From IMG/VR virus record IMGVR_UViG_3300045110_000117, positions 1-37,363 of that record: 37,363 nucleotides of DNA; one strand, 5' to 3'. The position numbers and the translations under genes were made by a program. Shown in pieces: positions 13,680 to 25,556 of the stretch (within the stretch, counting starts at the first letter, position 1; each line of letters begins with the position of its first letter). The notes beneath the pieces are model-generated. The model was not told the DNA's origin and did no database searches. It saw nothing but the letters and a program-made list of their open reading frames with translations. The DNA is from a virus.

Positions 13680-15014
13680 TCAGATCCCCATCCACGATGA
13701 TTCCAGCCCGCGCGGCTCGAGGTATTTCCGGGTCGGCAACTGCCCGCTGATGATGTCCACGGTCGGTGTCTCGGTATCGCGCACGCCAAGCGCCAGATAG
13801 CGCGCTGCATCGGCACCGTGGCTGGCGTGGTCATGGACTGGTGCGCTGCGCCAGGTCTGCGCCGCCTCGTTCCATTCCCGCCGGTAATGCCGCAGCGCGC
13901 TGATGCCCTTGGCGCAACGCTCGGCATCGAACCATGCCCGCGGCAGGATCATGCGAACCGCATTGATGCCGTCAGCGACGCTGTGCGAACGGCATTGGCG
14001 GGTGGGGCGAACGCCGAGGGAATGCAGGGTTTCAATGCGGGACTTCCCACTCCCCAGCTCCCGCACCGCTGCATCGTGGGGCAGGATATGGCGCTCGTAG
14101 ACGTATGGGCGTGTCTGGAGGATGCGGACGTAGTGATCCAAGCCAGCGCCGCTGTCCTCGATGTAGTCGATCAGCCGCCACTCGCCGCCCTTGGTGACCT
14201 GGCAGCACCAAATGGCTGTGGAATCATGCACGCCGAGATCCCAAGCGGTCCAGACCTTTAGCGCCGGATCATGCGGCACGCCGCCAATCCGCCCGGCCCG
14301 CTCCACCTCATCCATGAGCTTGCCGTAATAGCTGCCGCTGTTGGGCGCATTGAACGAGCAGCACAGTTCCTGCTCGAACTCCTCGTCGCTCATCTCAGTC
14401 CGCAGCCGCTCTATGGCTTCTGCCGACAAGGCGTTGGTGCGGGTGTGATCGAGGAGGTATGCGCTGTAGCCGGGCGTGGTGCGTGCTCTGTCGTATGCGG
14501 CTTGGAGTAGCCCGCGGCCCTTGGGCGTGCCAGATCGAACCAGGGTGCCGTCTCTATCTGCGAGCATCGGTTCAATAACCAGCGGCACCATTGATTGCGG
14601 CGTATCGTCGAACTCGTCGATGATGCACTCATCGGCGTATCCCCCGCGCCAGCTATCCGGGTTGTCCGCACCGCCTGCCTGCCAGGTGCCGCCATTTGGC
14701 AGCTTGATGGCCATCTCGGAGCGGCGGACGACCGCGCCGGGGATGGCATCCGCCGCCCGCACCGCTTGATCCCACAGGCCGGTGCGGCTCCACATGACGC
14801 CATACGGCAGGATATGGACGACCCGCGGCAATGGTTTTGGATCGGTCAGAGCACGCTTGAAGCCGCGCCACATGAGGGCGGTAGACTTGCCGGCCCGACG
14901 ATGCACGACGGCAACGATACGCTTGGCCGGGTCGTCGATGAGAGGCTTTTGCCAGGGCCGGGGCGCGAACGGCAGCGTAACCTTTGCGCGGGTCTGCTCA
15001 GTTGCCATCGACAT
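13680..15014 (-). CDS. terL: Terminase large subunit
   Basis: A 444-residue packaging motor and nuclease. Walker A is HRRAGKST (residues 38-45). Walker B with its catalytic carboxylate is ECIIDEFDD (129-137). The C-terminal RNase H-like nuclease has WDLGVHDSTAIW (D259, D264) and HDHASHGADAARY (D401). Two ATGs (15014, 15008) are possible and both overlap the end of the small subunit. The protein follows TerS directly, as in P22-like phages. The gene after it is the Ig-like protein rather than the portal. All motor and nuclease motifs look intact. Confidence 0.9.
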   Translation of the reverse strand: MSMATEQTRAKVTLPFAPRPWQKPLIDDPAKRIVAVVHRRAGKSTALMWRGFKRALTDPKPLPRVVHILPYGVMWSRTGLWDQAVRAADAIPGAVVRRSEMAIKLPNGGTWQAGGADNPDSWRGGYADECIIDEFDDTPQSMVPLVIEPMLADRDGTLVRSGTPKGRGLLQAAYDRARTTPGYSAYLLDHTRTNALSAEAIERLRTEMSDEEFEQELCCSFNAPNSGSYYGKLMDEVERAGRIGGVPHDPALKVWTAWDLGVHDSTAIWCCQVTKGGEWRLIDYIEDSGAGLDHYVRILQTRPYVYERHILPHDAAVRELGSGKSRIETLHSLGVRPTRQCRSHSVADGINAVRMILPRAWFDAERCAKGISALRHYRREWNEAAQTWRSAPVHDHASHGADAARYLALGVRDTETPTVDIISGQLPTRKYLEPRGLESSWMGI

Positions 15015-15327
15015 CGGCTGTCTCTGCGAACATCACCGAGATCATTGTGTCCGATTCCGCATCGATCGTCTGCGGCACTGATGGTTCGGTTGCATCTGCC
15101 CAGCGGAAATCAACTGCAATGGGTGCGCCATTCTCGCCGGTCATCTGGAAAGGCAGCACGCGGCCGATGAGTCCCATGAACGCGACGGGATTTTGCTCGG
15201 CCTGGCGCATGAGATATTCCTGGCCGCCCACTCCCGCTAAGGCACCGACGATCATGCCTCTGAGGTCGCCGTTGACCTTGTTGGGCGTTCCTTTTGAGCG
15301 TCCGCCGGTTTTTCGTCCGAGTGCCAT
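14998..15327 (-). CDS. terS: Terminase small subunit, probable
   Basis: A 109-residue protein overlapping TerL by 17 bases. The N-terminus MALGRKTGGRSKGTPNKVNG is the basic GRPKGTPNK-type patch that opens many phage small terminases and binds DNA. The middle (LRGMIVGALAGVGGQEYLMR, AFMGLIGRVLPFQM) is helical, matching the oligomerisation region. The C-terminus is acidic. Its position and N-terminal patch support the call more than global similarity, and it is shorter than P22 gp3 (162 residues). Start ATG at 15327. Confidence 0.65.
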   Translation of the reverse strand: MALGRKTGGRSKGTPNKVNGDLRGMIVGALAGVGGQEYLMRQAEQNPVAFMGLIGRVLPFQMTGENGAPIAVDFRWADATEPSVPQTIDAESDTMISVMFAETADVDGN

Positions 15328-15350: not shown

Positions 15351-15941
15351 TCATTCTCGTGCTGTGAGACATGCGATGGGGACGGTTAGCTCTCGCAATG
15401 CCCCCAGCATCGGCAACGCAATCCTCGCTGTATTCGTCGCCGCTGCGATGACGACGGCCTCTCGTCCCTGGAATGGCCCGTAGAGGCACGTGACGGGGGC
15501 GCCAGGGCGCAGGAGCGGTGCGTCCGGTAGTGGGAGGCGGCGGAAGGCGTCACCGGCCTGTAGGGCGTGCATAATGGCTGGATCGAGATGGTGGGGTGTC
15601 GAGCCGCTCATGAGCACCTGGCGAATGCCGCGATAGGACAGGATCGGTGACCAGCGGTCCTCGGTTCCAACGGCCACGAAGACGTAGCCGGTGAACAGCG
15701 GGCGCTCGACGCGGTGCAGCATTGTCGGCGTATGCCGGTCGCGGCGCTGGACGACGATCAGCGGGAGGTATGTGTGATAGCCGGCGCCGGTGAGCTGGGT
15801 TGCGGCCCATCGTTCGGCCTGTGGGTGGGTTTGTGCGACGAGCCAATAGCTACCGCACCCGGCGTGGTTGGCGTCAGGTTGCGGCGCTTTTATGCGCGTC
15901 AATGGCTTAGGGTCAAGAGTTTGGTGGGCGAGTGCGGTCAT
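15351..15941 (-). CDS. NusG/RfaH-like transcription elongation factor
   Basis: A 196-residue protein. NusG-family proteins bind elongating RNA polymerase through the NGN domain and suppress pausing or termination. Residues 32-135 read as an NGN domain: SYWLVAQTHPQAERWAATQL, GAGYHTYLPLIVV, ERPLFTGYVFVAV and GIRQVLM are the usual strands. Residues 144-192 form a KOW-type barrel (LRPGAPVTCLYGPFQGREAV). Residues 1-30 are an extra disordered N-terminus. The RfaH-like PLFPGYLF element appears as PLFTGYVFV. Its gene overlaps the preceding gene (ATGA) and is the last before TerS. The likely role is antitermination across the long late operon; role inferred, family confident. Confidence 0.8.
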   Translation of the reverse strand: MTALAHQTLDPKPLTRIKAPQPDANHAGCGSYWLVAQTHPQAERWAATQLTGAGYHTYLPLIVVQRRDRHTPTMLHRVERPLFTGYVFVAVGTEDRWSPILSYRGIRQVLMSGSTPHHLDPAIMHALQAGDAFRRLPLPDAPLLRPGAPVTCLYGPFQGREAVVIAAATNTARIALPMLGALRELTVPIACLTARE

Positions 15942-16435
15942 TCGCGCAACTTCGGTCCCGAAATGCCGGCGCGCTTGTAGTGCTCGGCAAGTTGTTCGCG
16001 GGTAAGCGGCGGCGCGGGCTTGTAGGGGGCGCCCTGTGGCTTTTCGGCGCGGTTGTAGACCTCGGCGTGGTTTGCGTGGAGCTCGGCGGTGAGGTTGGCG
16101 ACGAGGCTGCGGACGTAGGCGCGTTCTGCGTCGGTGGGTTCGGTGCGCGGTTCGGGGATGCTGGTGTCTCGCCCGAGGATGGCGGTGGGTCGTGGGCGGT
16201 TATCGCGCCACCAGGCGGCAAGATGCTCGCGAAGATCAGCGTAGGTTGGCACGCCATGGCGGCAGTTGGCGGCGACGTGCTCGAGGCTGGCGATGGTGAA
16301 TGCGTCGTCCGGGAAGCTGGCCAGCATCGGCGCGTAGGCGGCGAAGGCTTGGGCAGCGGCGGAGCTTTCCATCGGGCTGGTGAGCTTGGCCAGCATGGCG
16401 AACCATTGGCCGCGCTTGGTTCCTACGCGGCTCAT
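15938..16435 (-). CDS. Probable helicase-loader-type replication protein
   Basis: A 165-residue protein that overlaps the initiator gene by four bases (ATGA), the position of lambda P or helicase loaders next to O-like initiators. Residues 25-70 (AAAQAFAAYAPMLASFPDDA, EHVAANCRHGVPTYADLREH) resemble the helical part of loader/inhibitor proteins such as G39P, with the FP...A pattern followed by a P...DLR helix. Residues 100-160 are helical and charged, ending in LTREQLAEHYKRAGISGPKL. No Walker motif is visible, so it is not a DnaC-like ATPase. The function is inferred mainly from context. Confidence 0.45.
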   Translation of the reverse strand: MSRVGTKRGQWFAMLAKLTSPMESSAAAQAFAAYAPMLASFPDDAFTIASLEHVAANCRHGVPTYADLREHLAAWWRDNRPRPTAILGRDTSIPEPRTEPTDAERAYVRSLVANLTAELHANHAEVYNRAEKPQGAPYKPAPPLTREQLAEHYKRAGISGPKLRE

Positions 16436-17277
16436 TGGAGGCGCAGTCCGGCAAACAGCCCGGTGGCCATGTCATCGGGGACGAGGCCGAGGGCGCGCAG
16501 GACGGGATCGACGGTATCGGGTTCGTCGTGCCAGCGGTCCTGATTGAGCCAAGTCTTGGGGTGTGGGCGGTAGCGTTCGTCGAGGAGTTCCATCTTGGGC
16601 CGGGCGCGATCGAGGCCGTCGAGGATGTCGTCGGGGTGAGTGCCGCGCTTGACGGCGGCGGCGAATGCGGTGGCAGCGGCGCGCTTGCCGACCTTGCGTG
16701 GATAACCTGCCCAGAAGTCAGCGAAGCCGGCCGGCTGGCTCACACACGGCGGCGGCTTGCCGTCGCCAACTGGTGCCGCGTGAGGGGTAGGGGTGTTCTT
16801 TCCTTTCTGGTGGATTCTTACTGGTGGAGTCTTGGTCCCCCCATTTTGGGGGGTCAACTCGGTGGTTGAGGGGTCAATCTGGGGGGTCAAGTATTTGCGA
16901 GGAGGGGTAGTTGACCCCCCATTTTGGGTGTTCAAGTCCTGCGTTGAGGGGCCATTTTGGGGGGTCAAGTCCCCGTGAGAATGGGGGCCTTTCCCGTTCG
17001 GTTTGGCATAGCTCTTGAGCATGCGAAACACGCTCGGGCGGCGCTTGAACCGATCGACCTCGACGATGCCGTCCGCAATCAATCCATGGATCGCGCGCGA
17101 GACGGTGTTGATACCGATTTGCAATTCCGCAGCGATGTCCCGCTCGGTCATGCGCCAGACCCGGTGCCCGTTGGCGTGGTTCTCCAGGCACATCCACACC
17201 AGGCGATAGCTCGTCGGGCGACGCTTATCCGTCGGGCCGCACGCACGCATAGCATCCAGAAGACCGGCCACGCTCAT
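16432..17277 (-). CDS. Replication initiator, lambda O-like winged-helix protein
   Basis: A 281-residue protein with AAGAGGT upstream of its ATG. Residues 1-95 are a winged-helix DNA-binding domain (SYRLVWMCLENHANGHRVW, RDIAAELQIGINTVSRAIHG, LIADGIVEVDRFKRRPSVFR). Residues 100-175 are a Thr/Pro/Gln-rich linker with repeated LTPQNG/LTPQID units encoded by strong DNA repeats. Residues 190-265 form the C-terminal domain common to phage O-like proteins (FADFWAGYPRKVGKRAAATA, then RYRPHPKTWLNQDRW). It would bind repeats at the origin and recruit the helicase via the next gene. The linker repeats may themselves be the origin, as in lambda O. Confidence 0.75.
   Translation of the reverse strand: MSVAGLLDAMRACGPTDKRRPTSYRLVWMCLENHANGHRVWRMTERDIAAELQIGINTVSRAIHGLIADGIVEVDRFKRRPSVFRMLKSYAKPNGKGPHSHGDLTPQNGPSTQDLNTQNGGSTTPPRKYLTPQIDPSTTELTPQNGGTKTPPVRIHQKGKNTPTPHAAPVGDGKPPPCVSQPAGFADFWAGYPRKVGKRAAATAFAAAVKRGTHPDDILDGLDRARPKMELLDERYRPHPKTWLNQDRWHDEPDTVDPVLRALGLVPDDMATGLFAGLRLQ
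16841..16972. repeat. Iteron-like direct repeats, candidate replication origin
   Basis: Within the linker-coding part of the initiator gene, a core of CCATTTTGGGGGGTCAA or close variants recurs at 16841-16857, 16876-16890, 16919-16935 and 16952-16968. Two 28-bp units, 16865-16892 and 16943-16970, are 25/28 identical. Runs of C6 facing G6 also create small dyads, for example at 16837-16853. Lambda has its origin iterons in the equivalent place in gene O. Confidence 0.55.
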
Positions 17278-17441: not shown

Positions 17442-17695
17442 TGCAGCCTCCCCCCGCCGATCTCCCCAGTGCGCGCCACCGCCATGACCATCTGGCAAAT
17501 CTTCCCCGCCACCGCCGTGCGGTAATCCACGTCGTCGTTCCCCTCCATCACGCAGGCGAGCAGGAATCCCACCGCGCAGGCCCCCTGGAGCCAGCAGCAA
17601 TCCGCCTCGGCCAGCGCGTCGGACAGCAGCTCGTAGAGCCGGTGGTCGTGCTTCCAGTCGGCCGGCATTTCCACGTCGATGGCGAACTGGGTCAT
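17438..17695 (-). CDS. Small cysteine-containing protein, unknown function
   Basis: An 85-residue protein; the ATG at 17695 overlaps the methyltransferase stop (ATGA). It begins MTQFAIDVEMPADWKHDHRL and continues with helices rich in Ala, Leu and Cys (LSDALAEADCCWLQGACAVG, FLLACVMEGNDDVDYRTAVA). Four cysteines cluster at about residues 33-53. Weakly hydrophobic overall, without a clear membrane helix. No family recognised. It lies between the methyltransferase and replication genes and is part of the same overlapping gene run. Confidence 0.55.
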   Translation of the reverse strand: MTQFAIDVEMPADWKHDHRLYELLSDALAEADCCWLQGACAVGFLLACVMEGNDDVDYRTAVAGKICQMVMAVARTGEIGGGRLQ

Positions 17696-18654
17696 GCCGC
17701 CGCGTCCTGTGCCGCCGCCTCGTTGCCCCACACCGTCCAGCCCAGCCGCGGGCCGCGCGCGAACATCTCCAGCAGCCGCAGGCCGGGATACAGCTCCTCG
17801 ATCATCTCGGCGAAACCCACCGGCTTGGCGCTGTGCTCGCCCACCGCCAGTTCGATCACCGAGGCGTATTGCGTGCCAGGCGCCGGGGCCGGAATGTCGC
17901 CCCGCGTGCCCACCAGCAGCAGCTCATGCAGGCTGCGGAACCAGTAGCCGGTACCGAGAACGTCCTTGGCCCAGATGCAGTGCGATTTGTATTCGAACCC
18001 CCACGCCGCCATGACCTCCAGCGCCTCGGGCAGCATCGGCGCGGTGGCCCACAGGAACAGCACCGCATCGTCGGCAGCGGGCACCTCAAGAGCCTTGATG
18101 CCATCCACGTCCATCGTCGGGTAGTGGTTGTCCGCCGCCCGGTCCATGCCGCTGTCGCGCGAGAACGGCTCGAACCGCCACGGCGGGTCGGCGTAGATAA
18201 CGTGGTAGATGCCCTCGACCGGCTCGGCGGACGCTAGCGTGTCGATCCGCTCGGCCCGGCGCCCTCGCTTGATCTCGGCGGCCAGTTCTCGGGTTGAACG
18301 CGGCTCGCCCGTCTCGGCGATCGGCTCCTCGCACCAGTCAAGCAACTGATCCGCTACCACCGGCAGTAGCGGCGCGGCAATGCGGTGGTGATCATAGCTC
18401 AATCTGTCATGGCGCCGTGACACATCCCATGCCTTGGCCACCGTTCCTGCATTGCGGCATGTCCCATATTGCGGCCCGGTCCATTGCTGGCGATGCACCA
18501 CCGCTACCCGGTCGCCATACCGCTCGCCGCGGTTCCACCAGTCGCCGATGTCCCACATCAGGCTTTCCGCCGAGCGTTCACGTTCGCCCAGTGCCAACCC
18601 CTCAGTTTCCCATTCGGATAGGGATTCATTATTGGCCCATGTCGCCGCGCTCAT
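17692..18654 (-). CDS. MT-A70 family adenine methyltransferase
   Basis: A 320-residue protein. MT-A70 enzymes transfer a methyl group from AdoMet to adenine N6. The catalytic DPPW is at residues 156-159 within GIYHVIYADPPWRFEPF. It is followed by NHYPTMDVDGIKAL, FLWATAPMLPEALEVMAAWG, FEYKSHCIWAKD and the closing AdoMet-site-like ELYPGLRLLEMFARGP with GWTVWGNE. Residues 1-150 are an extra helical domain (LSEWETEGLALGERERSAES, RHDRLSYDHHRIAAPLLPVV) that may recognise DNA. It likely protects phage DNA from restriction or alters methylation-sensitive promoters, notable because a GcrA-like gene is in the same operon. The target sequence is unknown. Confidence 0.8.
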   Translation of the reverse strand: MSAATWANNESLSEWETEGLALGERERSAESLMWDIGDWWNRGERYGDRVAVVHRQQWTGPQYGTCRNAGTVAKAWDVSRRHDRLSYDHHRIAAPLLPVVADQLLDWCEEPIAETGEPRSTRELAAEIKRGRRAERIDTLASAEPVEGIYHVIYADPPWRFEPFSRDSGMDRAADNHYPTMDVDGIKALEVPAADDAVLFLWATAPMLPEALEVMAAWGFEYKSHCIWAKDVLGTGYWFRSLHELLLVGTRGDIPAPAPGTQYASVIELAVGEHSAKPVGFAEMIEELYPGLRLLEMFARGPRLGWTVWGNEAAAQDAAA

Positions 18655-18969: not shown

Positions 18970-19359
18970 TTACGCCGCGATCCTCCCGCGTAACGGCAGC
19001 GCCCAGCCCCGCAGAGCCGCCACCACCTCGTCCAGCGAGCGGCACACCGCGACCTCAACCCCCGCCTGGCGCATCAGCGCATGACATTCCCGCTGGTTCT
19101 CGGAGAGGTAGCCGCCGCGCCGCTTGAGTTCGAGGCAATACAACCGCCCGCCAACCACCACCCACAGATCCGGCAGGCCACTGACAGCGCCCCTGCCCTT
19201 GAGGATCGCCCCGGTGAGCGCGTCCTTCTTGTGCGCGTGGTCGATCGCGGTCACGAAGGCATCGCGCGGCAGCAGGATACGCAGCGCCCGGCACGCCTCG
19301 GCCTGGAAGACGTGCTCCGTCTTGACCTCCTCGGTGAGCCGGAATGGACGCCCGCTCAT
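18970..19359 (-). CDS. VRR-NUC domain nuclease
   Basis: A 129-residue single-domain protein of the PD-(D/E)XK superfamily. VRR-NUC enzymes cut branched or Holliday-type DNA. The expected active site is visible: an early E (residue 15 or 21), D64 in SGLPDLWVV, the E77-x-K79 pair in LYCLELKRRGGYLSENQ, and the following Q. The gene overlaps GcrA-like (ATGA). In phages this size of VRR-NUC usually resolves replication or recombination intermediates before packaging. Here it lies far from the RecT gene and in the opposite operon, and no RecE- or lambda-type exonuclease is seen. Confidence 0.8.
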   Translation of the reverse strand: MSGRPFRLTEEVKTEHVFQAEACRALRILLPRDAFVTAIDHAHKKDALTGAILKGRGAVSGLPDLWVVVGGRLYCLELKRRGGYLSENQRECHALMRQAGVEVAVCRSLDEVVAALRGWALPLRGRIAA

Positions 19360-19856
19360 GACGCCACCGCATGTGCGTAGGAATGCGGGCGCCAGTTCAG
19401 GAACGCCCGGCGGCAGTGCCGCTCACAGTATGGCCGGCATGGGAACGCCGGATCGCCGCACAGGTAGAAACTCGCCTGCCCCGGCGTCCCGTGTGGCCAT
19501 TGGCATTCCCGCACCACGCCAGTCGGCACCAGCCACAGCGACAGCCGCTGCCGGGGGCGGCCAGGCGGCGCACGCTCCGGTTCCGGCGCCGCAGCCTTGG
19601 CCTCAACCCGCGCAACCGCCTTCACCACCCCAGCCGCTCCGCTCATCCGCGACCCAGTCGGGATCGGCGAGGCCCGCGCCTCCAACTCCAGCCGATGCGC
19701 CCGCCCCAGGCACGCAGACTTCGTGCGCCCCATGGCCTTGCCGATCGCCACGCCGGACAGCCCCTCGGTCCAGAGCGCCGCCAGCCGCTCGTCGTCCTCG
19801 TCGGACCACGCCATGGCCCCCGGCCGTTGCCCCGCCGCCTGGCGATGGGCGCTCAC
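19356..19856 (-). CDS. GcrA-family transcription regulator
   Basis: A 166-residue protein. GcrA is an alphaproteobacterial cell-cycle regulator that works with sigma-70 at methylated GANTC promoters. Residues 15-55 match its HTH (AWSDEDDERLAALWTEGLSG, VAIGKAMGRTKSACLGRAHR). A Pro/Ala/Arg linker follows. Residues 120-160 match its C-terminal polymerase-binding part (RECQWPHGTPGQASFYLCG, FPCRPYCERHCRRAF). A GTG at 19856 overlaps the previous stop (GTGA) and gives a 14-residue extension; ATG 19814 would give the classic short N-terminus. It probably hijacks host cell-cycle transcription. Its DNA preference cannot be read from sequence. Confidence 0.8.
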   Translation of the reverse strand: MSAHRQAAGQRPGAMAWSDEDDERLAALWTEGLSGVAIGKAMGRTKSACLGRAHRLELEARASPIPTGSRMSGAAGVVKAVARVEAKAAAPEPERAPPGRPRQRLSLWLVPTGVVRECQWPHGTPGQASFYLCGDPAFPCRPYCERHCRRAFLNWRPHSYAHAVAS

Positions 19857-20011
19857 GGCGTGACGCCCGCGTTAACGCCGCAATAGTGCTCACGGCGTTT
19901 GTCACTTGCACGGCGCGGAACTATTGGCTTATTGCCAACTTTAGCTGTTGCGGCGAACGGGGAACGACTGGCACGATATGAGACTTCCGGCTGCTTTGAC
20001 CGCTTATCCAT
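19853..20011 (-). CDS. Very small basic protein between XRE and GcrA-like genes
   Basis: A 52-residue frame starting at ATG 20011, inside the last codons of the XRE gene, and ending at a TGA that overlaps the GTG of the GcrA-like gene. It is rich in Arg, Lys and Ser (MDKRSKQPEVSYRASRSPF, KPIVPRRASDKRREHYCGV). No domain. The two tight overlaps suggest it is translated, perhaps mainly to couple expression of the regulator to the XRE repressor. A nucleic-acid-binding role is conceivable from charge only. Confidence 0.45.
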   Translation of the reverse strand: MDKRSKQPEVSYRASRSPFAATAKVGNKPIVPRRASDKRREHYCGVNAGVTP

Positions 20012-20270
20012 GTGCGCGCCCTCGGTCCTGCTCCTCCGTTGCCTTCGTCCTGGCACCGCGCAGCCGCCGCTTGGTCTTGGCACGCCGCTTGAAGCTGGAC
20101 GCACGAACCTGGTCGCCGGTCACCTGTTCGATCCGCGCCACCGCGATCGCGTCGGGCACGTTTATGCCCATCTCCCACTTCTGGACGGTCGTGAAATGCA
20201 CCCCCCCGAGCAGCATTCCCATCTGCTCCAGGGTCAAACCCGCGCGCGTGCGATATTCTCGGAGGGTCAT
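20004..20270 (-). CDS. XRE-family regulator, leftward arm of a divergent switch
   Basis: An 88-residue Cro/CI-type protein. Residues 1-55 are an HTH_XRE domain (LREYRTRAGLTLEQMGMLLG, HFTTVQKWEMGINVPD), and the tail is basic (SFKRRAKTKRRLRGARTK). The recognition helix HFTTVQKWE is almost identical to that of the divergently encoded XRE protein at 20385, so the two are paralogues and may share operators. ATG 20270 or GTG 20276 are possible starts. The -10 of a candidate promoter ends seven bases before the ATG, so the message may be leaderless, as lambda cI is from PRM. It heads the leftward operon. Confidence 0.75.
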   Translation of the reverse strand: MTLREYRTRAGLTLEQMGMLLGGVHFTTVQKWEMGINVPDAIAVARIEQVTGDQVRASSFKRRAKTKRRLRGARTKATEEQDRGRAHG

Positions 20271-20276
20271 CCCCAC

Positions 20277-20306
20277 ATGCTAGACGTTCAATCAAAAAGG
20301 GGTCAA
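20277..20306 (-). promoter_or_regulatory. Candidate sigma-70 promoter for the leftward operon
   Basis: On the minus strand, TTGACC (20306-20301), an 18-base spacer and TAGCAT (20282-20277). Transcription would start at or within a few bases of the XRE start codon. CTAGACG is repeated at 20280-20286 and 20334-20340, and GATGGC/GCCATC (20313-20318/20329-20334) forms a dyad; both are possible operators. Confidence 0.5.
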
Positions 20307-20384: not shown

Positions 20385-20654
20385 ATGTCGGCCTACCTGA
20401 AGAAATGGCGCACGACTCTCGGCTTTACCCTGGAGCAGGTTGCGGGCAAGATTGGCCGGCATTTCACCACAGTCCAGAAATGGGAGACGGGGGTGAATGC
20501 TGTGGGGATGCGCGAATTGGAACTCCTAGGCAAAGCCTATGGCGTGCCGGCCATTGCCCTGACCCTTGACCCGGTTGATCGCAAGACCGCCGAGCGGCTG
20601 ATCCGCGCCCATCGCATCCTTACACAGTCCACCGAGGCCACCATCGATGAATAG
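20385..20654 (+). CDS. XRE-family regulator, rightward arm of the switch
   Basis: An 89-residue protein. Residues 1-60 are an HTH_XRE domain (SAYLKKWRTTLGFTLEQVAG, HFTTVQKWETGVNAVGMREL) paralogous to the leftward repressor. The C-terminus (RKTAERLIRAHRILTQSTEA) is helical and may dimerise. It is the first rightward gene; an anti-repressor or Cro-like role is likely. No recognisable promoter stands out immediately upstream. It lacks a peptidase domain, so it is not a LexA/CI-type self-cleaving repressor. Without an integrase in view, temperate life cannot be concluded; it may only govern the early-late decision. Confidence 0.75.
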   Translation: MSAYLKKWRTTLGFTLEQVAGKIGRHFTTVQKWETGVNAVGMRELELLGKAYGVPAIALTLDPVDRKTAERLIRAHRILTQSTEATIDE

Positions 20655-24096: not shown

Positions 24097-24536
24097 GCGT
24101 CAATCTCCGTCATGACGGTTATTGAGGGAAAATGACGGACATTGATGGACATTGAGGGATTGACCATGTCGCTGATATCGCGCCGCCGATCTGCCGAGAT
24201 TGAAGCAACGCGCCCCGTTCGCGGCGGCCAACGGGGGATCGGCAGAATCTCGCTAGCCCGGCTATCGAGACGGGCGGACAGAACCCGACATAACCCGACA
24301 GAACTGGGTAGCGATTCTCTTGCTATCTCCGCGATATCGCCGCACTTGACAAAAACCCGGCGGAATTGCCCGGCTAACCCGTTGATATGACGGGGCATTA
24401 AATCATGTCACAACTTTCTATCCGCGACATAGGTTTTGCCACCTTGACTTTTCCCGAGCCGATTTCCCGCCCCTGTCGGTCCTCAGAAACGGGATCAAAC
24501 GACCGTTTGCTCATGACTAGCTACACTGGACACCCC
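24097..24536. other. Intergenic region with short repeats, no supported gene
   Basis: About 440 bases with no convincing gene; an 82-codon rightward frame (24142-24390) has no motif or ribosome binding site. The region holds tandem GACATTGATG/GACATTGAGG near 24138-24160, ATGACGG repeated near 24112 and 24132, ACCCGACA twice near 24294-24301 and 24300-24310, and ATCTGCCGA facing TCGGCAGAAT (about 24188 and 24238). It may contain the promoter of the methyltransferase and of the leftward RHH gene. Confidence 0.5.
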
Positions 24537-25556
24537 ATGATGCACTCCGTCCTCTCGCTGTTCTCGGGAATTGGAGCCTTCGATTTAGGGCTGGAGCGCA
24601 CCAACGGCTTCCGCACCGCCGCGTTCGTGGAGATCGACCCGTTCTGCCGCCGCGTCCTCGCGAAACACTGGCCCGAGGTGCCCTGCTATGACGATGTTCG
24701 CACGCTCACCGCCGAGCGCCTGGCAGCAGATGGAATTGTTCCCGATGTCATCGCGGGAGGGTTTCCATGCCAGGACATCAGCGTTGCCGGACAGGGCGCG
24801 GGCATCGAGGGCGAGCGCAGCGGATTATGGTCCGAGTTCGCCCGGCTCATTGGCGAGATACGACCCCGATACGTGCTCGTGGAGAACGTCGCAGCTCTGC
24901 TTGGACGGGGAATGGGACGTGTTCTCGGAGATCTTTCCGCGCTCGGGTATGACGCGGAGTGGGACATTATTTCAGCGGCCGACATGGGGGCGCCCCACCG
25001 CCGCGAACGGGTCTGGATCGTGGCCTACCCCGATAGCGGACGACGCGTTGGGCAGCATGTATTGCTATGGCCCGAAGCGGGACGACGGCAGCAGGCCGAT
25101 CTTTCTGAAGCTGCCTGGAGCGGTGCAGATGTGGCCTACCCCGCAGGCACACGACACGGCACCGGACAACCCTGCGCGGGTGGGACGCTTTGGGACGAAG
25201 CACGGCGGGCGGAACCTGAACGACGAAGTGGCGATGTGGCCGACGCCGACAGTGGTGACGGATACGGGCGGGGCGGCGCTGTGCAAATGGGGCGGGGCTG
25301 GGGCGAGAGCGAAGCTGCGGACGATGGTGACGCCGGAGGAATTCAATGGGGCGTTATCGCCGACGTGGGTCGAAAAACTCATGGGCCTCCCCCCAGGATG
25401 GACGGACCTTGGGGCGCCGACTGGGAAGACGGCATCCCGCGGGTAGCCCATGGCGTGCCTGACCGGGTGAGCCGGCTCAAGGCGCTCGGGAATAGCTTGG
25501 TGCCGCAGATACCGGAAATGTTGGGGCGCATGATCCTGGCAGCGGAGAGAGAATAA
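24537..25556 (+). CDS. dcm: DNA C5-cytosine methyltransferase
   Basis: A 339-residue enzyme. The start at ATG 24537 places the family opening MHSVLSLFSGIGAFDLGLE (motif I) at the N-terminus; open frame continues up to ATG 24405. Other motifs are GGFPCQDISVAGQGAG (IV, catalytic C78), VLVENVA (VI), GAPHRRERVWIVAY (VIII) and LKALGNSLVPQIPE (X). The region between VIII and X (about 165-300), the target-recognition part, is rich in Gly, Arg and Ala and carries VADADSGDG and GVIADVGRKTHG. A second frame spanning 24688-25446 overlaps most of the gene. It likely protects the phage from restriction. The recognition site is unknown. Confidence 0.85.
   Translation: MMHSVLSLFSGIGAFDLGLERTNGFRTAAFVEIDPFCRRVLAKHWPEVPCYDDVRTLTAERLAADGIVPDVIAGGFPCQDISVAGQGAGIEGERSGLWSEFARLIGEIRPRYVLVENVAALLGRGMGRVLGDLSALGYDAEWDIISAADMGAPHRRERVWIVAYPDSGRRVGQHVLLWPEAGRRQQADLSEAAWSGADVAYPAGTRHGTGQPCAGGTLWDEARRAEPERRSGDVADADSGDGYGRGGAVQMGRGWGESEAADDGDAGGIQWGVIADVGRKTHGPPPRMDGPWGADWEDGIPRVAHGVPDRVSRLKALGNSLVPQIPEMLGRMILAAERE
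24688..25446 (+). CDS. Overlapping frame with WPTP repeats, possible second protein
   Basis: A 252-codon open frame lying entirely inside the cytosine methyltransferase gene, in another rightward frame. It is not random-looking. It has the sequence order SLARYDPDTCSWRTSQLCL, EWDVFSEIFPRSGMTRSGTL, three WPTP units (SWPTPIADDA, MWPTPQAHD, MWPTPTVVTD) and LSPTWVEKLMGLPPGWTDL. From memory, such sequences are annotated as separate proteins next to phage C5 methyltransferases. Either this is a genuine dual-coding gene or a recurring artefact of conserved methyltransferase sequence. No strong ribosome binding site is visible before ATG 24688. Confidence 0.4.
   Translation: MTMFARSPPSAWQQMELFPMSSREGFHARTSALPDRARASRASAADYGPSSPGSLARYDPDTCSWRTSQLCLDGEWDVFSEIFPRSGMTRSGTLFQRPTWGRPTAANGSGSWPTPIADDALGSMYCYGPKRDDGSRPIFLKLPGAVQMWPTPQAHDTAPDNPARVGRFGTKHGGRNLNDEVAMWPTPTVVTDTGGAALCKWGGAGARAKLRTMVTPEEFNGALSPTWVEKLMGLPPGWTDLGAPTGKTASRG

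Follow-up and report, generated by a model that had tools for sequence, protein, structure and literature searches.

A NusG paralog between replication and packaging genes as a candidate late-gene switch of phages, with a putative loading site inside its own gene

Introduction

Specialised paralogs of NusG have been described in bacterial operons for capsules, LPS, toxins and antibiotics, as well as on plasmids. RfaH of E. coli, which acts on long operons, reads the ops sequence GGCGGTAGCGTG through a hairpin of the non-template DNA whose loop, G4-G5-T6-A7, is closed by the pair C3:G8, the bases read being G5 and T6 (PMC5995543). In the LoaP-dfn arrangement of Bacillus, a hairpin, which in dfn carries a UNCG loop, is followed by a terminator (PMC12691694). 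UpxY, from the capsule operons of Bacteroides, is encoded within the operon that it controls, as its first gene. In phage lambda, the gene for Q lies after the replication genes and before the terminase, and Q binds DNA within the promoter. With regard to phages, rfaH-like genes on prophages are mentioned in passing only in a 2020 mBio survey (PMC7593976). In a search confined largely to the open literature, no work on late regulation by a phage-encoded NusG was found; in several phage records, the gene is annotated as NusG.

Here, such a gene is analysed in the window, i.e., the whole stretch of 37,363 nucleotides of viral DNA (IMG/VR record IMGVR_UViG_3300045110_000117), together with its relatives in viral contigs and isolated phages. 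The phage NusG probably travels with the host RNA polymerase and thereby turns on a long late operon, and it appears rather likely that this paralog is a late-gene switch working by antitermination, loaded at a site encoded in its own gene.

The nusG-like gene and its protein

An earlier note on this DNA, made from the letters alone, had proposed a NusG/RfaH-like processivity or antitermination factor at this locus, an interpretation which, taken as a whole, was partly supported. The gene is real, its coordinates were given exactly, and its strand is the minus one:

15351..15941, minus: nusG-like gene, with ATG at 15941 and stop at 15351, 196 aa
Residues 1-31: disordered N-terminus
Residues 32-127: NGN
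Residues 121-135: linker helix
Residues about 149-194: KOW-like barrel

Residues 32-127 match the Pfam family NusG (PF02357, E=1.4e-11; 45.2 bits, cut-off 22.2), and residues 32-192 match PHROG 6386, 'transcription antiterminator' (1.2e-13). In an AlphaFold2 model obtained from an alignment of 43 relatives (mean pLDDT 79.9), the first ~30 residues are predicted to be disordered (pLDDT 44-49), and the C-terminal strands (149-194) form a small barrel of five strands. NusG and RfaH chains were matched by this model in Foldseek, and its NGN superposes on that of RfaH (8pen_P; TM 0.88 by target length, rmsd 1.4 A, 100 columns). Both hallmarks of the NusG/Spt5 superfamily had been called recognisable: the NGN is borne out by PF02357 and by the predicted structure, and the KOW is seen as a barrel in the structure model alone, with no separate match from any family model. 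The C-terminal domain is modelled in the beta state only, and models of this kind can miss a fold switch.

Among the curated models, RfaH gives the best score (TIGR01955 of NCBIfam, 59.8 bits, cut-off 144.5), ahead of UpxY (NF033644, 45.3 bits, cut-off 100), LoaP (NF033641, 22.6 bits, cut-off 125) and housekeeping NusG (TIGR00922, 15.6 bits, cut-off 135.7). Taking into account that the NGN is closer to RfaH than to NusG and that every one of these scores falls below its cut-off, the protein is a NusG paralog on the RfaH side, and not RfaH itself. The RNA-polymerase-binding motif PLF..Y.FV is present in the NGN. No homology to lambda Q was found, the protein being matched only by NGN, RfaH-like and antiterminator families.

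Position between replication and packaging genes

The neighbourhood of nusG and the regulatory genes of the window are as follows:

13680..15014, minus: large terminase subunit (PHROG 2)
14998..15327, minus: short gene, putative small terminase (PHROG 11043, a family without named function)
15938..16435, minus: short conserved gene, sharing ATGA with the nusG start
16432..17277, minus: DnaD/O-like replication initiation protein
17692-18654, minus: MT-A70-type DNA methyltransferase
19356-19856, minus: GcrA (PF07750, 2.7e-21)
20010-20269, minus: Cro-like gene (small HTH), start about 20269
20277..20306, minus: candidate early promoter, sigma70-like, in front of the Cro-like gene
20385-20654, plus: divergent small HTH partner (CI/Cro-like) of the Cro-like gene
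24405-25556, plus: C5-cytosine DNA methyltransferase

The candidate early promoter is the sole sigma70-like promoter called on the minus strand by the promoter scan. The genes of this strand follow in the order Cro-like, GcrA, VRR-NUC nuclease, MT-A70 methyltransferase, DnaD/O-like initiator, short gene and nusG, and 3' of the latter lie the putative small terminase, the large terminase, the portal, the major head protein and onward. The proposed junction between replication and packaging genes is thereby confirmed, with the DnaD/O-like side upstream and the terminase downstream. The placement 'directly upstream of the terminase genes' holds as to the terminase side, with the qualification that one short gene, the putative small terminase, precedes the large terminase. 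The ends of nusG overlap or nearly touch its neighbours, and its stop is separated from the next gene start by 23 bp. The genes for the tail and for ejection (26.8-37.3 kb) are likewise on the minus strand, so that, if a circularly permuted genome is assumed, the late unit would comprise about 26 kb. The layout is the same as in lambda, with nusG where lambda Q would be, and the Q-like role suggested in the earlier note fits it.

A scan of viral contigs using THPQAERW as the pattern returned 46 loci. A large terminase could be detected in 41 relatives, and in all 41 it follows nusG on the same strand at a distance of 0.3-5.3 kb (in three, the count runs across contig ends), an order also seen in isolated phages where the terminase is annotated; this neighbourhood is far beyond chance. 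The invariance of THPQAERW itself was dropped as evidence because the motif had been the search pattern. In 19 larger related contigs tested (31-45 kb), GcrA was matched in 17, with 11 matches above the cut-off, and a tyrosine integrase in none, which points to alphaproteobacterial hosts and to probably lytic phages. Two scans of genome collections returned no relative of the window NusG and one relative of the Bradyrhizobium protein. In one related contig (L002, 9998-10587), the stretch that is 92% identical to the window in its DNA is nusG itself, between immediate flanks that have diverged; the gene is thus exchanged as one module.

As for other regulators, a small HTH pair (CI/Cro-like) diverges where the two transcription units begin, yet the 19 contigs tested contain no tyrosine integrase. 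With GcrA as an early initiation factor and a NusG-type factor for elongation ahead of the late genes, one phage would carry two regulators of the host polymerase. The window phage also carries both MT-A70-type and C5-cytosine methyltransferases, and several of the sister-clade isolates described below likewise have methyltransferase genes before nusG.

Among the late genes of the window, no intrinsic terminator in the sense direction exceeds chance. The obstacle in the window clade would for this reason probably be Rho, and what is antiterminated there is thus a guess. A nut-like block of 49 bp on the minus strand (19897-19945) was rejected as a candidate site: it lies inside a small ORF and recurs in only two other contigs of the collection (L003 and L004), where it is ~90% identical between differing flanks. 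The AT-rich codons of this block are unusual for the window genome.

A candidate promoter and an ops-like element within nusG

The first 35 codons of nusG contain a conserved nucleotide module, described here for the first time and composed of a putative promoter and an ops-like core, the latter in the codons C-G-S-Y-W:

15911..15916, minus: -35-like hexamer TTGACC (TTGACG in most relatives)
15889..15894, minus: -10-like hexamer CATAAA, spacer 16
15849..15856, minus: ops-like core GC-GGTA-GC, i.e., GCGGTAGC, within TGCGGTAGCTATTGG (15857-15843)

It was through weak matches of the sister-clade covariance model at the nusG start of two loci (L031, L008) that this embedded element came to light. 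In the relatives, the promoter reads TTGACG-N17 followed by TTAGAT, CTAGAT or GTAGAT, and the -10 of the window, with its spacer of 16, is weaker than theirs. The clade form CTTGACG..CTAGAT is close to the alphaproteobacterial promoter consensus CTTGAC-N17-CTATAT (PMC2573895). Transcription is predicted to start near 15882, ~25 nt before the ops-like core. Behind the promoter, the relatives have GC-N4-GC, its core being TGCGGTAGC or TGCGGACGC; no element was found in three of 45 loci (L020, L047 and the truncated L039). In 36 of 42 loci, at least 8/12 matches to the sigma70 consensus are reached in the 80 nt before the element, against 7% of random positions in the same loci. One further locus, L044, was dropped as a case of an element upstream of the start codon, its frame being open further upstream. 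The sequence GANTC, which would suggest control by GcrA, is rare near the embedded promoter (3/42 loci).

When viral contigs were searched with expressions picked after the data had been seen, TTGACG-N18-TAGAT-N(12-42)-GGTGCGGTAGC was found in seven contigs, all seven with an NGN gene at the spot, including one (L192) without THPQAERW, the motif by which the family had been found; the same promoter pattern with TGCGGACGC was found in six contigs, four of them with NGN. The window contains the combined pattern of promoter and element a single time, and the 8-mer GCGGTAGC alone, not significant by itself, three times.

With respect to E. coli, the loop G4-A7 and the closing pair C3:G8 of the window element are identical to the ops hairpin core. 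The earlier note had proposed a search for an ops-like site in the leader or early operon; the 8-nt core is indeed present and conserved, inside the 5' end of nusG, and the full 12-mer is absent near the gene. The E. coli 12-mer itself, tried as a lead, was not enriched on the sense strand, and just the 8-nt core was found later. Other loops of the clade are GGAC (11/42), GGCA, CACA, CGCA, TACT and TACG. In an alignment based on W33 and the phmmer match, R73 of RfaH corresponds to R104 of the window protein, and the ops-contacting R23/Q24 correspond to G52/A53, R-Q being the family consensus, so that the readout of the element may differ. Around the core, the leader RNA of the window folds no better than its shuffles (z 0.04), a result more in keeping with a hairpin of DNA than of RNA.

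The locus resembles RfaH/ops in its NGN fold, its best NCBIfam score, the GGTA loop closed by C:G and the proposed action on a long operon. It differs in that the phage gene lies inside the operon that it would control, in that the element is placed within its own coding sequence behind its own promoter, and in a score far below the cut-off, with no evidence of an alpha-helical C-terminal domain or a fold switch in the window protein. UpxY is likewise a NusG paralog encoded in its operon, but as first gene and not mid-operon. With lambda Q and the late promoter pR' the locus shares a promoter and a promoter-proximal element for the proposed loading; however, the two proteins are unrelated, and the DNA bound by Q lies within the promoter, whereas the element of the window would be transcribed.

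Constraint at the nucleotide level

It could be argued that the conserved N-terminal residues (MLDA, LD, CGS.W) have been selected as a protein motif, the DNA pattern being a by-product, and these residues are in fact in frame in most relatives. Nevertheless, rare codons are fixed: CGS is encoded by TGC GGT AGC in 22 of 24 loci and CGR by TGC GGA CGC in 7/7. By comparison, Gly54, itself an invariant residue, uses GGC in 22/25, and THPQAERW shows variation at all of its synonymous positions. Between the N-terminal part and the rest, the shares differ for TTA among Leu codons (16.7% vs 0.8%, Fisher 2e-10), CTT among Leu codons (38% vs 4%, 2e-17) and GGT among Gly codons (44% vs 11%, 4e-9), the samples not being independent since the loci share ancestry. 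Moreover, the 11-mer GGTGCGGACGC is kept in another reading frame, giving V-R-T instead of R-C-G-R, in two relatives (L024 and L034) that share 38% identity. The predicted disorder of the N-terminal region (pLDDT as above) also speaks against a protein motif, which is strongly disfavoured and most improbable. Taking the fixed rare codons and the displaced 11-mer together, the constraint on the module is, as read from these sequences, nucleic and not one of protein.

A sister clade with a leader downstream of nusG

A second arrangement is found in Agrobacterium phage Rivra, Sinorhizobium phages phi2LM21 and phi3LM21, Mesorhizobium phage P1, Rhizobium phage PPF1 and Nostoc phage Nsp-JY10. In these six isolates the order is replication initiator, nusG and leader, followed by the terminase where the record continues; the position of the gene is the same as in the window, while the element comes after the gene and has a covarying stem. 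NusG is known in this clade by annotation name: its proteins share ~25-32% identity with the Nostoc protein by tblastn and do not match the window protein. The paper on phi2LM21/phi3LM21 makes no mention of NusG or antitermination.

The sister leader consists of an outer stem CCCTGA/TCAGGG, a variable inner stem and then GTGC-N4-GCTATG, so that a GC-N4-GC motif is common to both clades; an intrinsic terminator follows in five of the six isolates. In viral contigs, CAGTGCNANAGCTATG was matched 119 times. In 29 cases nusG ends 101-160 nt upstream, and 27 of these have the stem and 23 the terminator; among the 90 other matches there are three terminators, all of them contig-edge cases with nusG cut off. 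Taking the 29 cases and these three together, 24 of 32 have the terminase 0.8-1.9 kb further downstream. Across 38 sequences, 94% of the cells pair, against 19-45% in slid controls, both partners have changed in 7 of 14 pairs, and the covariation score, 0.234, is higher than that of any of 500 shuffles (mean 0.121). Promoters upstream of this element are just slightly above chance. Neither the window nor the phage leaders gave a match in Rfam, and the sister covariance model gave nothing convincing in the window clade. The leader after nusG in L049, L065-L069 and L073-L191 is a candidate new RNA family (model R1).

In the sister clade, the obstacle is an intrinsic terminator. The closest parallel is LoaP/dfn, also a NusG paralog with a hairpin leader and then an intrinsic terminator; the window differs from it in its low LoaP score and in having no such RNA hairpin in its clade.

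Proposed mechanism and alternatives

It is proposed that the phage NusG would first be made from the early minus-strand operon, and that the host RNA polymerase would also initiate at the promoter embedded in the first nusG codons. About 25 nt on, GC-GGTA-GC would be transcribed, and the non-template strand could form an ops-type hairpin at which the polymerase may pause. At this site, the phage NusG would load via its NGN, displacing host NusG and Rho, and would stay on the polymerase through the terminase, head and tail genes, making transcription processive and Rho-resistant. As transcripts from the embedded promoter would have no nusG start codon, the supply of the factor would limit itself.

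Two other readings have to be weighed. Since promoter and ops-like site are both inside nusG, they might govern this gene or its message and not the late operon. However, the embedded promoter would yield transcripts that cannot start nusG and enter the terminase genes 23 bp after its stop, and the sister-clade element is found after nusG, before terminator and terminase; autoregulation of this sort is accordingly held to be quite improbable. Alternatively, the phage NusG could compete with host NusG on all elongation complexes and lower Rho termination of every phage transcript with no loading site, as would be compatible with an NGN bearing the polymerase-binding motif and with a window that offers no intrinsic terminator to overcome. 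Such a takeover seems unlikely, given that a conserved promoter and ops-like element tied to nusG would then be purposeless and that the second clade has a leader and terminator tied to its nusG. Loading at a self-encoded site is thus the preferred reading.

If it is true, late antitermination in phages would be linked to RfaH by an ops-like site with a hairpin core identical to that of E. coli, and a compact in vitro system would be at hand, with factor, promoter and site within about 600 bp. It could also explain late-gene expression without a recognisable Q in many alphaproteobacterial and cyanobacterial phages, and the sister leader would be a new covarying RNA, absent from Rfam. In a broader sense, we lean slightly towards a widespread, unrecognised class of phage late switches, in which NusG paralogs in the position of Q have dedicated loading sites, embedded in one clade and in the form of a downstream leader and terminator in another; RfaH/ops-type control may then have phage relatives or origins.

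Other phages with nusG-like genes

Genes of this kind at or near the junction are also present in Synechococcus, Microcystis, Labrenzia and Bradyrhizobium phages, where the leader model is unmatched. In two Synechococcus phages (L070, 4459-5061, and L072, 3459-4061), the nusG-like gene opens a rightward unit, opposite leftward genes, and in L072 the gene that comes after it is the small terminase.
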